From: Cyanobium sp. ATX 6A2
Lineage (GTDB): Bacteria; Cyanobacteriota; Cyanobacteriia; PCC-6307; Cyanobiaceae
Reading direction: 5' to 3'
Length of the DNA stretch: 64,000 bases
Assembly (NCBI RefSeq): GCF_024346355.1
Contig: NZ_JAGQCU010000017.1
Coordinates: 1 to 64,000 of the forward strand
Position numbers and translations under genes: made by a program. Below the pieces are notes generated by a model. It was not told the DNA's origin and did no database searches. It saw only the letters and a program-made list of their open reading frames with translations. Numbering within the stretch: position 1 is the stretch's first letter; each line of letters opens with the position of its first letter. Shown one piece after another: positions 27,870-33,101 of the stretch.

Positions 27870-29102
27870 GTGGTGGGCTGCGATGCCTCCGGCCTGCCGG
27901 GCCTGCCGCCGGCGCAGCGAGCCCTGCTGCAGGGCGCCCGGCTGCTGGTGGCACCGGCACGGCTGCAAGAGCAGCTGGCGCAGGCCTGCCCGCATGCCGA
28001 GCGGCTCAGCAGCGAGCGGCCCGAGCGGCTGCTGCCGCGGCTCCGCCAGGCCCTGGTCAGGGCTGAGCCGGCGGTGGTGCTGGCCAGTGGCGATCCGCTC
28101 TGGTTCGGCATCGGCCGGTTGCTGGTCCAGGAGCTGGGTGCGGCGGCGCTGCGCTTCCATCCAGCCCCCAGCTCGCTGCAGCTGGCCTTCGCCCGCATCG
28201 GCCGGCCCTGGCAGGACGCTCGCTGGATCAGCCTGCACGGCCGCGACCCTGAACCCCTGGCGGCGGCCCTGCAGCAGCGCCCGCCGGCCCTGGCGGTGCT
28301 CACCGACCCCGGCCGCGGCGGTGCCGGCGAGGTGCGGGCGCTGCTGCGGGCCTCGGGCCTGGAGGCGGCCTACGGCTTCTGGCTGTGCGAGCGGCTGGGC
28401 CATCCGGCCGAGCGGGTGCAGCGGCTGGCAGCGCAGGCGTGTCTGCCGGCCGATCTCGATCCGCTGCACCTGGTGCTGCTGATCGCCGAACCGCCGCCAC
28501 CGCCGCTGGATCCGGCGGCCCTGCCACTGTTCGGCCTCGACGACGGCCTGTTTCTGCAGCACGACGATCGCCCCGGCCTGATGACCAAGCGGGAGGTGCG
28601 CATCCAGTTGCTGGCCGATCTGGACCTGCCCGAGCGCGGGGTGCTGTGGGACATCGGTGCCGGGGTGGGCTCCATCGGTCTGGAGGCCCTGCGGCTGCGG
28701 CCGGATCTGCAGGGCTGGCTGGTGGAGCAGCGCGGCGGCGGCGCGGCCCTGATCAGCGCCAATGCCGCGCGGCTGGGGGTGGCACCGGCCGGGGTAGTGG
28801 AGGGGCGGGCGCCGGAGGCCCTGGCGGCGCTGCCGGATCCCGATCGGGTGCTGCTCGGCGGTGGCGGCCGCGGGCGGCTGGCGCTGCTGGCAGTGGTGCT
28901 CGATCGGCTGCGGTCGGGCGGGCGGGTGGTGATCCCCCTGGCCACCGTGGAGGCGCTGGCGGAGCTGCGGCCGCCGCTGGAGCGGGCCGGCCTGGCGGTG
29001 CGGGTGGCTCAGCACCAGGCCTGGCGTGGTGCTCCCCTCGCCGACGGCACCCGGCTGGCGCCGCTCAATCCAGTGCTGGTGCTGGTGGGGCAGTGTCCCT
29101 GA
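27870..29102 (+). CDS. cobL: Precorrin-6Y C5,15-methyltransferase (decarboxylating), CbiE-CbiT fusion
   Basis: Methylates C5 and C15 and decarboxylates the corrin ring in cobalamin synthesis. The 410-residue protein fuses an N-terminal CbiE tetrapyrrole methylase (VLASGDPLWFGIGRLL near residue 70) to a C-terminal CbiT domain with the SAM motif LWDIGAGVGSIGLEAL. The GTG at 27870 is the first ordinary start, but family members begin a few residues earlier (an in-frame WVDV precedes it), so a CTG at 27843 is possible. The 3' end overlaps the convergent DUF192 gene by 38 bp. Confidence 0.9.
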   Translation: MVGCDASGLPGLPPAQRALLQGARLLVAPARLQEQLAQACPHAERLSSERPERLLPRLRQALVRAEPAVVLASGDPLWFGIGRLLVQELGAAALRFHPAPSSLQLAFARIGRPWQDARWISLHGRDPEPLAAALQQRPPALAVLTDPGRGGAGEVRALLRASGLEAAYGFWLCERLGHPAERVQRLAAQACLPADLDPLHLVLLIAEPPPPPLDPAALPLFGLDDGLFLQHDDRPGLMTKREVRIQLLADLDLPERGVLWDIGAGVGSIGLEALRLRPDLQGWLVEQRGGGAALISANAARLGVAPAGVVEGRAPEALAALPDPDRVLLGGGGRGRLALLAVVLDRLRSGGRVVIPLATVEALAELRPPLERAGLAVRVAQHQAWRGAPLADGTRLAPLNPVLVLVGQCP

Positions 29103-29598
29103 AGGACCCGCTGCCCAGGGGTTCGATGGTGACCGGCGTGCCGGCCGTGATCCCCAGCCGGGCCGCTTCGCCGGCCGCCAGCTCGAGCACCCCCTCCACC
29201 GGCTCGGCCGGGCCGTAGCTGGGGCAGGGCAGGCGCGGGCAGGGCTGGACGTCGGCCTCGATCGCCAGCACCCGGCCGGAGCTCACGAACAGCATGTCCA
29301 GTGCTGCGGGGGTGCGGTGCATCCAGAAGCGCGCCGGCGCCGGCGGTTCGTAGGGGAACCACATGCCCCGCAGGGGCGGCAGGGGCGGCCGCAGCTGCAG
29401 CCCCAGGGCCTGGCGGCGCGGGGTGTCGGCCACCTCCAGCTCGATGCAGCGCTGCGGCGCCAGGCACCAGCGGGCCGTGATCGGCAGCACCTGGGGCGCC
29501 CCCTGATCCCCCCGGGCCCGCAGCGCAGCGGTGGGGATCAGCAGGCCGGCCAGGGCCAGGCCCGCCAGTGCCAGGGCCCTCGGCGCTGCCGGCCTCAT
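29065..29598 (-). CDS. DUF192 family protein, exported
   Basis: A 177-residue protein with a signal peptide or N-terminal anchor (LALAGLALAGLLIPTAAL) and a DUF192 domain. Landmarks are LEVADTPRRQALGLQLR, FWMHRTPAALDMLFVSSG, VLAIEADVQPC and GVLELAAGEAARLGI. Function unknown; the fold is small and all-beta. It starts in the stop of the response regulator gene (ATGA), so it is the third gene of the nadK-regulator-DUF192 unit. Confidence 0.85.
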   Translation of the reverse strand: MRPAAPRALALAGLALAGLLIPTAALRARGDQGAPQVLPITARWCLAPQRCIELEVADTPRRQALGLQLRPPLPPLRGMWFPYEPPAPARFWMHRTPAALDMLFVSSGRVLAIEADVQPCPRLPCPSYGPAEPVEGVLELAAGEAARLGITAGTPVTIEPLGSGSFRDTAPPAPALD

Positions 29599-30260
29599 CC
29601 GCCGCCTCCCAGCGCGGGCAGGCCGGCGCTGAGGCAGTAGCCCTGGCCCCGGATCGTGTGGATCAGGCGCCGCTCGCCCTCCTGCTCCAGTTTCTGGCGC
29701 AGATAGCGCACGTACACCTCGATCACGTTGCTGGCCATGCCGCGATCGTCGTTCCACACCTGGCGCAGGATCTGATCGCGGCTCACCACCCCGCCCTGCC
29801 GTTCGAGCAGCAGCAGCAGCAGCTGGTATTCCCGGGCGGTGAGGGCCACCGTGCGGTTGCCGCGCTTCACCTGGCGGCTGCTGGGGTTGAGGGTGAGGTC
29901 GGCCACCTGCAGCAGCGGTGAGGGCAGGCCGCTGCGGCGCCGCAGGTTGAGTTGCAGCCGCAGCCGCATCAGCAGGTCGCTGGTGCCCTGGCCCGGCAGC
30001 CAGAAGTCGTCAGCGCCGGCGCTCAGGCAGCGCACCCGTGCCTCCACCGAGTCGGCCTCCACCGCCAGCAGGATCGGCACATCGACGAAACGCCGGCGCA
30101 GCGCGGCGATGCGCCCCTGCTCCTGCGGCCCCAGCAACACCAGATCGGGCCCTGCTCCGGGGGCCTCCGGATTCCGCTCCAGCGCGTAGCCGGAGGCCTC
30201 CAGCCGCGCCGCCAGGGCCTCTGCTTCCGGCCCCAGCAGCAGCAGCCGGGCCGCGCTCAT
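29595..30260 (-). CDS. OmpR-type response regulator with degenerate receiver
   Basis: A 221-residue protein with an intact C-terminal OmpR winged helix (residues ~125-215: [47 protein letters not shown]). The N-terminal receiver is recognisable (GADDF near 87) but lacks the usual residues. The Asp phosphorylation site is replaced in [11 protein letters not shown], no acidic pair follows the first strand ([12 protein letters not shown]) and the conserved Lys after GADDF is absent (WLPGQG). It should therefore work without phosphotransfer, perhaps by dimerisation or ligand. It overlaps nadK and DUF192 by ATGA on both sides. Confidence 0.85.
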
Positions 30261-31174
30261 GGGAGTTCCCCGTTGCCGGGTTTGGCCACGTGGGGCAGGC
30301 CCCAGCCCAGCTTGTTGCGCAGCACCCCGAAGAACTCGTGATCGGCCAGTCGCACAAACCGCACCGGATGGTCACTGCGGCGGATCAGGATCCGGTCTTC
30401 GGGCCAGATGTAGCAGCCGGCACTGCCGTCCACCACCATCATCAGCCGCTCCGGGGTGGCGGGAAACACCGTGACCGGCTCGCGATCGCTGAACACCAGC
30501 GCCCTTGAGGCCAGGGAATGGGGGGCGATCGGCGTGAGCTGCAGCACCGGGCAGTCCGGCGTGATCACCGGACCCCCGGCGCTGAGGGCGTAGGCGGTGG
30601 AGCCGGTGGGGGTGGAGAGGATCACGCCGTCGGCGGCGATGTCCACCGGGGCGTGGCGGCCGATGGCGATCTCGAAATGGCACATCGACGTGAGCGGCTC
30701 GCGGTGCAGGGCCATTTCGTTGAGGCAGAGCACCTCCCAGCGGCGCTGCTCGCTGCGCAGCACGCTCACCACCAGCATGCTGCGCTCCTCCACCGTCCAG
30801 CGGCCGGAGATCACCTGCTCGAGGGCCCCATCGAGCTGGTGCAGGTAGGCCTCGGCCAGAAAGCCCAGATGGCCGGTGTTGATGGTGAGGATCGGCACGC
30901 CGATCGGTGCCGTCTGGCGCGCCGCAGAGAGCACGGTGCCGTCGCCGCCGAGCACCACCGCCAGCTCCAGCTCCTCGCTGAAATTGTCCGGCACGCAGGC
31001 CCTGAAGCCGCGGTTGCGCAGGTGCTGGTCGGGGTTGGCGAAGCCCACCATGCCCCCGGAACTGCTCACCCGCCGCACGTCCCAGCCGTGGCCCCTGAAG
31101 CGCTCCTCAAGGGCATCGGCGGTGGTCATGGCCAGGCCCTTGCCGTCATTCACGATCAGTCCGACGCGGGGCAC
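30257..31174 (-). CDS. nadK: NAD kinase
   Basis: Phosphorylates NAD to NADP. The 305-residue protein shows the ATP/NAD site [32 protein letters not shown] and the Gly-rich loop [16 protein letters not shown]. Cyanobacteria usually carry two paralogues (Sll1415/Slr0400-like); this one cannot be assigned with certainty. It lies 41 bp downstream of pheS and is coupled to the degenerate response regulator by a 4-bp overlap. Confidence 0.95.
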
Positions 31175-31215: not shown

Positions 31216-32223
31216 TCAGAACTGCTCCAGGAAACGCAGATCGCTGGTGTAGAGGCGGCGGATGTCATCGATGCCGTGGCGCACCATGCAGAAGCGCTCC
31301 ACCCCCAGGCCGGCGGCGAAACCGCTCCAGCGCTCCGGATCCAGCCCCATCCCCTCCAGCACCGCCGGATCGACCATGCCGCAGCCCATCACCTCCAGCC
31401 AGCGGCCCCGCCACTGCACATCCACCTCGGCGCTCGGTTCGGTGAAGGGGAAGTAGCTGGCGCGGAAGCGCACCGGCAGGTCGCCGAAGAAGCGCTGCAG
31501 AAAGGCCGTGACGGTGCCGCGCAGATGGCTGAAGGCGAGGCCCTCGTCGATGGCCAGCACCTCCACCTGATGGAACACCGGCGAGTGGGTGGCATCCACG
31601 GCGTCGCGGCGATACACCCGCCCCGGGGCGATCACCCGCACCGGCGGCGGGTTGGTCTCCAGGTAGCGGATCTGCACCGGTGAGGTGTGGGTGCGCAGCA
31701 GCCGGCCGTCCTGGAGGTAGAAGGTGTCCTGCATGTCCCGGGCCGGGTGATGCTCGGGGATGTTCAGGGCCGTGAAGTTGTAGTGGTCGGTCTCGATCTC
31801 CGGCCCCTCCGAGACCCGGTAGCCGAGGCCGCTGAAGATGTCCACGATCTCTTCGATCGTGCTGATCAGCGGGTGGCGACGGCCCACTGGCACGTAGCTG
31901 CTGGGGGCCGTGACATCGAGGCTTTCGCGGGCGATGCGCTGCTCCAGCACGGCTGATTTCACCGCCTGCAGGCGTTCGCTGAGCTGCTCCTGCACCTGCT
32001 GCTTGAGCACGTTGGCCCGCTGGCCGATCACGGGACGGTCAGCGCCCGGCAGCTTGCCCATGGCCCCCAGCACGGCCGAGAGCCGCCCCTTCTTGCCCAG
32101 CAGGCCCACCCGCAGCTCATCGAGCTCGGCGGCGCTGCCGGCGGCGGCGATGGCGGCGGCCGCCTCGTTCTCCAGCTGCTGGAGCTGGGCGCTCAGATCC
32201 TCAAGCGACACGGTGACGCCCAC
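31216..32223 (-). CDS. pheS: Phenylalanyl-tRNA synthetase alpha subunit
   Basis: A 335-residue class II synthetase subunit. N-terminal coiled coil ([18 protein letters not shown]), conserved [20 protein letters not shown], motif 2 region ([38 protein letters not shown]) and motif 3 [17 protein letters not shown]. The GTG at 32223 is chosen because homologues begin with a Met followed two or three residues later by TVSL; an ATG at 32286 would overlap the divergent surE start. pheT is not in the window. Confidence 0.93.
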
Positions 32224-32279
32224 GACAAACCCGCTGTTGGTGGCCAGGAGGAGACTGTACGGAGCAGTCCCCCAAACCG

Positions 32280-33101
32280 ATGCCACCCCTGAGGATCCTG
32301 ATCAGCAACGACGACGGGGTCTTTGCCGCCGGGATCCGCACCCTGGCCAACGCCGCCAACGCCCGCGGCCACACGGTGAGCGTGGTTTGCCCCGATCAGG
32401 AGCGCTCCGCCACCGGCCATGGCCTCACCCTGCAGACCCCGATCCGGGCGGAGCGGGCCGATGAGCTGTTCGATGACGGCATCACCGCCTGGGCCTGCAG
32501 CGGCACCCCCAGCGACTGCGTCAAGCTGGCGCTGTTCTCACTCCTCGATGAGTGGCCCGATCTGGTGCTCTCGGGCATCAACCACGGCCCCAACCTGGGC
32601 ACCGACGTGCTCTATTCCGGCACGGTGAGCGCGGCCATGGAGGGCACGATCGAGGGACTGCCCGCCCTGGCGGTGAGCAGTGCCGATTTCCAGTGGCGTC
32701 AGTTTGAGCCCGCGGCCGGCCTGGCCCTGGATGTGGCTGAGCGCATGCTCGCCGAAGAGTGGCCCCAGGGGCTGCTGCTCAATCTCAACGTGCCGCCGCG
32801 GCCCGCCGAGAGCATCGGCCCCCTGCGCTGGTGCCGCATCGCCGTGCGCCGCTACACCGACCAGTTCGAGCGCCGCATCGATCCCCGCGGCCGCAGTTAC
32901 TACTGGCTGGCCGGCGAGGTGGCCAACGACCTCGACGCCGCCGTGGCCGGCCCACCTCTATGGCCCACCGACGTGGCCCATGTGCATGCCGGTGGGGCTT
33001 CTCTGAGCCCCCTGCAGCCGGAATTCTTCTGGATGGGTGACACCACCACCCTGCCCAACCTCGAGGCCCTGAATGTGGCCGGGCCTCAGCGCACCCTGTA
33101 G
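32280..33101 (+). CDS. surE: 5'/3'-nucleotidase SurE
   Basis: A 273-residue metal-dependent survival-protein phosphatase acting on nucleoside monophosphates. The metal site is [42 protein letters not shown] and AAMEG are all typical. It is divergent from pheS (56 bp between starts) and upstream of the convergent DUF3611 gene, which it overlaps by 16 bp. Confidence 0.95.

Follow-up and report, generated by a model that had tools for sequence, protein, structure and literature searches.

What does an OmpR-type regulator do once its receiver has lost the phosphorylation site, and why is its gene joined to that of NAD kinase? These questions are raised by a 64,000-nucleotide stretch of Cyanobium sp. 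ATX 6A2 (hereafter, the window). On its minus strand lie, in this order, pheS (open reading frame at 31216–32286, of which 31216–32223 was scanned; upstream of nadK and in the same direction), nadK (30257–31174), the regulator gene (29595–30260; 221 residues) and a gene for a DUF192 protein (29065–29598; PF02643, E 5.3e-26). The nadK product is an NAD kinase of the NF002732/PRK02649 type, scoring 552.8 bits against a cut-off of 348. An earlier interpretation made from the letters of the DNA (the sequence-only reading) had described the regulator gene as locked between its neighbors by 4-bp overlaps, and this is correct: both junctions read ATGA and overlap by 4 bp each, the one with the DUF192 gene at the regulator stop codon. 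The overlapping genes suggest that translation of the regulator is coupled to that of nadK.

The winged-helix DNA-binding domain of the regulator (residues 136–210; 29631–29855, minus strand) is intact, as had been claimed. Trans_reg_C (PF00486; E 5.4e-26) matches with 90.9 bits against a cut-off of 26.2, which places the protein among OmpR/PhoB regulators, and several structural matches of this domain reach Z scores of 15–16 with an rmsd of 1.2–2.5. Trans_reg_C is the sole Pfam domain found; Response_reg was not matched even with an E-value limit of 1. A receiver-only AlphaFold2 model based on 48 sequences (pLDDT 90.3, pTM 0.85) has the receiver fold with helix α2 missing. Its best match, tied with other receivers, is the VicR receiver 8fk2 (Z 14.6, rmsd 2.3, 106 residues aligned), and each of the best 50 rows of the fold comparison is a receiver or a protein that contains one, with no other family among the matches listed.

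Within this fold, alignment places Gly44 at the lost phospho-Asp position (30129–30131, minus strand, as for the following sites), Gly10-Pro11 at the lost acidic pair (30228–30233), Pro89 at the lost Lys (29994–29996) and Val67 at the Thr position. The loss of Asp, acidic pair and Lys had been recognized before; the erosion is wider than was then stated, extending to the Thr and to helix α2. Residues 29–39 (30144–30176), where helix α2 is expected, form a coil in the AlphaFold2 models, and the alignment shows that this segment varies in length among relatives. From the GY of strand β2 to the GADD motif, two orthologue sets have medians of 58 and 59.5 residues, compared with 70 in the non-bleaching regulator NblR and 69–70 in ordinary regulators; the receiver of the Cyanobiaceae family is about 12 residues shorter, and the loop after strand β3 is shortened too. 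Mean pairwise identity among 48 Cyanobiaceae orthologues is 66.6% in the DNA-binding domain versus 50.7% in the receiver.

The window protein resembles the aspartate-less regulators RitR and CosR in being of OmpR type with a receiver fold devoid of the catalytic residues, and in the full-length structural comparison CosR ranks first (Z 16.6, rmsd 8.9, 205 residues aligned). ChxR and HP1043 are likewise aspartate-less or pseudo-receiver regulators. Common ancestry with the window protein is seen only at the level of the OmpR family; in contrast to RitR and CosR, the Cyanobiaceae family also has a shortened helix α2 and a shortened loop after strand β3, and RitR's linker Cys is missing from the window protein. 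The regulator lacks residues, Asp included, from the conserved five, of which at least one, Asp among those missing, must be absent in an aspartate-less or pseudo-receiver protein as defined in the available text of PMC12632262 and PMC4395418.

Loss of the receiver site is not a local defect of the window genome. In a search of 121 Cyanobiaceae genomes, several of them incomplete, 57 matched at E up to 1e-30 and 55 carry the regulator; the sole match in the two removed (G071 and G120) is a paralogue (residues 53–210, 43%). Residues were counted in 30 orthologues from this genome search and in 53 loci (L121–L173) from a scan of named genomes that includes Synechococcus WH7803, with overlap of species between the two; counts are given below in this order. 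The orthologue set A1 leaves out L029 and L033, and set A2 leaves out L129 as well as L130, L145, L152, L159 and L168, which are truncated or lie at the end of a contig. In 30/30 and 53/53 loci Asp, Thr and Lys are gone, and Gly occupies the first acidic position in 30/30 and in all 51 loci with letters there. An alignment across picocyanobacteria, proposed in the sequence-only reading, thus agrees with it on Asp and Lys in 83/83 loci but not on the whole acidic pair, the second residue of which is still Asp or Glu in 2/30 and 10/53.

The operon-like order is conserved in Cyanobiaceae as well. nadK lies upstream of the regulator in 29/30 and 48/53 loci, the remaining six being contig ends, and DUF192 lies downstream in 30/30 and 51/53. 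Where nadK is on the contig, 22/29 and 43/48 loci have a start codon from which the regulator would overlap nadK by 4 bp. Of the 53 named loci, 44 have pheS on the strand of the regulator, and some do not extend far enough to include it. Of 24 pattern matches on viral contigs, none encodes a relative.

Several side observations were made on these loci. Downstream in the window, a TP_methylase gene (cobL-like; 27870–29102, plus strand) converges with the DUF192 gene (29065–29598, minus strand) and overlaps it by 38 bp; a TP_methylase protein match lies on the strand opposite the regulator in 46/53 named loci. L168 (CALPNT020000159.1), filed under a Bifidobacterium breve metagenome-assembled genome, has the cyanobacterial regulator and DUF192, which indicates contamination or mislabelling. 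In the window genome, two paralogues are pseudo-receiver-like: L005 (G000:C4:5995-6657), beside the canonical L004, has Gln for Lys and an unclear Asp position, and L009 (G000:C1:104395-104919) has Ala for Asp. The paralogues L003 and L006, which may be RpaA and RpaB, keep the Asp.

The regulator is most likely the Cyanobiaceae, that is, picocyanobacterial, descendant of NblR, with strict orthology inferred, and this probable identity had been missed in the sequence-only reading. In a survey of 96 genomes of the class, eight of them Cyanobiaceae, an NblR scoring above the curated cut-off was present in 61 and a nadK of the type described in 93. In 34 of the 61 genomes with NblR, nadK precedes nblR by 29–317 bp with both on one strand (this count and the genome cross-tables were compiled from printed match tables); in the other 27, draft contig ends included, it was not found beside NblR. 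Of the 30 best-scoring NblR loci, 25 have DUF192 downstream of NblR. Because the slot between nadK and DUF192 is the same, the Cyanobiaceae gene fills the position of NblR; the order nadK-nblR-DUF192, a criterion found here rather than published, is the order of the regulator locus.

Sequence signatures point in the same direction. A Cys four residues before GADD occurs in 25/30 and 38/53 Cyanobiaceae loci, in 37/39 NblR proteins (a count that excludes L206, which has no GADD motif, and L213, with Gly at the Cys position) and in 0/45 other OmpR regulators, comprising 27 from Chloroflexi, nine window-genome paralogues including L005, and nine cyanobacterial near-misses. Ser precedes GY in 30/30 and 49/53 Cyanobiaceae loci. 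The best NCBIfam model is NblR (NF045914) both for the window protein (149 bits vs 125 for the next model) and for the Synechococcus WH7803 orthologue (141.5 vs 109), with both scores below the curated cut-off of 300 bits. In a full-length tree, one split holds the Cyanobiaceae family together with NblR; its SH-aLRT of 94.3 falls short of a star. The trees were built from 61 chosen rows that include 17 of the 83 family loci; L007, L008 and L010 were left out of the full-length tree and the approximately unbiased (AU) test, and these three and L212 of the DNA-binding-domain tree.

NblR of the Synechococcus elongatus type thus shares with the window protein the OmpR-type DNA-binding domain, the Cys before GADD and, in many genomes, the position between nadK and DUF192. 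The receivers differ. In the 30 best-scoring matches of the class survey, from which all NblR residue counts are taken, NblR keeps Asp in 30/30 and Lys in 29/30, both of which the Cyanobiaceae family has lost; it has Glu as the first acidic residue in 29/30, where Cyanobiaceae have Gly, and Met at the Thr position in 29/30; and its receiver is of ordinary length, in contrast to the shortened one of Cyanobiaceae. Orthologues with an intact Asp in the same position, which the sequence-only reading had named as evidence against itself, therefore exist in part, as the probable NblR orthologues that follow nadK.

Based on these data, we regard as moderately probable a reading in which a Cyanobiaceae nblR descendant, with a phosphate-free scaffold for a receiver, is controlled by its level and its partners and acts in phycobilisome breakdown. 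The regulator would have been held in the old order nadK-nblR-DUF192. Its receiver would survive only as a scaffold, probably dimerizing without phosphate, as many pseudo-receivers do according to the available text of PMC12632262. Activity would be set by the amount made, through coupling to nadK, and by partner proteins, and not by a histidine kinase. The job would probably be the ancestral one, control of phycobilisome breakdown and related stress acclimation, exerted through an NblA-like gene among other putative DNA targets.

Redox control via two cysteines is the leading rival to this reading, although we consider it unlikely. Cys78 (30027–30029, minus strand), the residue four positions before GADD that is common to NblR, and Cys209 in the GYCL motif (29634–29636, minus strand), beside the DNA-binding wing, would be oxidized or disulphide-bonded, changing oligomer state and DNA binding, and the link to nadK would belong to the same redox theme. 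These are the only cysteines of the window protein. Both are widely kept in 48 Cyanobiaceae proteins, with Cys78 in 36, Cys209 in 41 and the two together in 31, and 55% of all cysteines in these proteins are at the two sites. Neither is invariant, however, since Cys78 is missing in 12/48 and Cys209 in 7/48, and Cys209, a Cys in 29/30 and 44/53 Cyanobiaceae loci, is Val in 30/30 NblR loci. Conserved cysteines can also be structural.

RpaA and RpaB are phosphorylated regulators. They too are of OmpR type, are named for their association with phycobilisomes and have a thiol-dependent oligomer state; shifts of oligomer state with thiol redox are thus described for cyanobacterial regulators other than the window protein (available text of PMC9321951). 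RitR, likewise an OmpR regulator without the Asp, senses redox through a cysteine as far as the available text of PMC5965902 goes; the window protein has no RitR-like linker Cys, the linker being near residues 110–116. According to the available text of PMC4390884, a redox signal is required for nblA to be induced, and the role of NblR is termed enigmatic there. Redox sensing by the regulator is thus possible, given its two conserved cysteines.

We favor descent from NblR over a second rival, in which the ancestor of Cyanobiaceae acquired another OmpR regulator between nadK and DUF192 in place of NblR. The unmet NblR cut-off is one argument for such a replacement, and the model is unspecific: it is the best one also for the canonical near-misses L201, L203 and L207 and for L213, at 236–297 bits, and a canonical paralogue in the window genome scores 203 bits on it. 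In addition, the DNA-binding-domain tree does not group the Cyanobiaceae family with NblR, and the mean identity of this domain to NblR is 49.6% versus 53.0 and 48.9 for near-misses and 53.3 for Chloroflexi regulators. The AU test on the group missing L206 gave p 0.182. Replacement is nevertheless quite improbable, as it would have to accommodate the identical slot between nadK and DUF192, the common Cys and SGY signature with the Cys in 0/45 other regulators, and the grouping of the family with NblR in the full-length tree. Because of the sub-cut-off score, the unspecific model and the DNA-binding-domain tree and identities, we describe the protein as probably descended from NblR and leave it outside NF045914.

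The link to nadK seems to predate the loss of the phosphorylation site, because NblR loci with the same neighbor keep the Asp. The sequence-only reading had argued from an Asp-less regulator tied to nadK toward sensing of a ligand or of redox state. The protein is Asp-less and nadK-linked as described; the link was not born of the loss of phosphorylation, and so it provides no direct evidence for ligand sensing. Intermediate states are found outside Cyanobiaceae or at greater distance. The more distant proteins L210 and L066 have, respectively, Glu for Asp and a lost Lys. An evolutionary series can thereby be laid out, from NblR with Glu as first acidic residue and Asp and Lys kept, through L210 and L066 and then L206, to Cyanobiaceae, in which the whole site and helix α2 are gone. 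Such stepwise erosion fits the report that S. elongatus NblR is active without phosphorylation (available text of PMC12632262 and PMC4390884).

Two loci of other cyanobacterial families deserve mention here. L206 (G153:C1:1773922-1774590), an NblR-like protein, has Glu for Asp, Ser for Lys (NSPY for LKPY) and a gap after strand β3, and perhaps represents an independent erosion. At L213 (G177:C21:2300-5600), the gene right after nadK encodes an NblR-like regulator (236 bits) that retains the Lys but has Ser in place of the first acidic residue, Glu in place of the Asp and Gly in place of the Cys before GADD.

A third rival, which we consider highly doubtful, makes the protein a reporter of NADP status, with NADP(H), NAD(H) or some other metabolite bound in the altered pocket of the receiver. 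The conserved nadK neighbor suggests it, as does Gly10, invariant in 48 Cyanobiaceae proteins at the former acidic pair, and some pseudo-receivers bind ligands (PMC12632262, available text). Yet the nadK neighbor is common to NblR loci that retain Asp and Lys, and the best 50 rows of the fold comparison, among them NtrX with ATP/ADP and PleD with nucleotides, all contain a receiver. The ligands of NtrX and PleD sit in domains other than the receiver. NADP(H) binding by the regulator, for which the nadK neighbor is the one line of evidence, is possible. A broader and rather unlikely idea is that NblR reads NADP(H) or redox status and has for this reason stood beside NAD kinase since early cyanobacteria, picocyanobacteria having dropped phosphorylation in favor of Cys78/Cys209 redox chemistry or nadK-coupled abundance. 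If true, NADP supply and antenna breakdown would be set together.

The nadK-nblR order, present in about half of the genomes tested, is a concrete lead on the signal of NblR. NblR is already known to control the breakdown of antenna pigments. In S. elongatus, nblA is not induced without it, and its role or signal is called enigmatic or not understood (PMC4390884, available text). No paper naming both nblR and nadK was found in the open-licence literature. Pseudo-receiver OmpR regulators and phosphorylation-independent NblR are already known; what is new, within the open-licence literature, is the nadK-nblR-DUF192 order, together with a likely identity for the picocyanobacterial orphan and the complete erasure of its receiver site. 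The orphan regulator of marine and freshwater Synechococcus and Cyanobium can now be tested as NblR.

The distribution of the gene counts in favor of an NblR descendant acting on phycobilisomes. Counting genomes with at least three PBS_linker_poly matches as phycobilisome-bearing, the regulator is present in 55/63 such Cyanobiaceae genomes versus 0/58 others, a contrast confounded by shared ancestry, which inflates any P value, as Prochlorococcus-like genomes may represent one loss. Eight phycobilisome-bearing genomes lack the regulator, which is therefore dispensable in some lineages. Of 21 regulator-lacking loci, 11 have DUF192 immediately after nadK and ten have no DUF192 at that place.

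Remnants of the regulator gene were observed just after nadK and before DUF192 at L085 (G034) and L116 (G049), both from phycobilisome-bearing genomes. The matches are at 5.4e-5 in G049 and, in two pieces, at 0.0076 and 1.1 in G034, at the position expected, suggesting deletions. That the regulator is a decaying, functionless gene kept between two needed ones could draw on these remnants and on the 11/21 regulator-lacking loci with nadK and DUF192 adjacent, but is extremely improbable given that 48 proteins (set A2) have open frames, show no change in the invariant DNA-binding residues even where identity falls to 50% and keep receiver motifs such as GADDFWLS, and that a lost regulator is deleted and so is not needed as a spacer.

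The preferred reading, an NblR descendant, also raises the question of a target. The Pfam NblA model matches in 72/96 class genomes, though in 0/8 of the Cyanobiaceae among them, and in 4/121 Cyanobiaceae genomes, only one of which is over the cut-off (G109, not phycobilisome-bearing). The idea that the regulator has outlived its target was dropped, because divergent NblA-like matches are present in 63/121 Cyanobiaceae genomes, with two in the window genome, and picocyanobacterial nblA genes have been published: a divergent nblA-like gene is reported in WH8102 (PMC7439483), and others are mentioned in PMC9602691, each as far as the available text goes. The seed of the NblA-like search was a single hit of 22.7 bits, under Pfam's 25-bit cut-off. 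An NblA-like match is found in 54/55 regulator-bearing versus 9/66 regulator-lacking genomes.

Upstream of these genes, the pattern TACG-N9-GMMACANTTYKTA, drawn from upstream regions of these same genomes, occurs exactly once in each of 39/55 regulator-bearing genomes and in 0/66 others; it is missing in 16/55, and read backwards it occurs three times overall. All 39 copies lie just before an NblA-like match. Fifty upstream regions, fewer than all NblA-like matches, were read, and 37 of these hold the pattern, with a GT making GTN10AC in 36/37 and a T making TAN3T in 37/37, AC, TA and the spacing of 21 being already fixed by the pattern. This layout, GTN10AC, a 21-base spacer and TAN3T, is that of promoters activated by NtcA. 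OmpR-type direct repeats before the NblA-like gene were considered and rejected, as the element fits an NtcA-type promoter; for the same reason, it does not show binding by the regulator. Within the spacer of the NtcA-type promoter, a conserved GAAACA-NTT is seen in the upstream region L231 (G000:C3:81100-81900) and in 36 more of the 50, and as a sequence feature could be a candidate site for a second factor.
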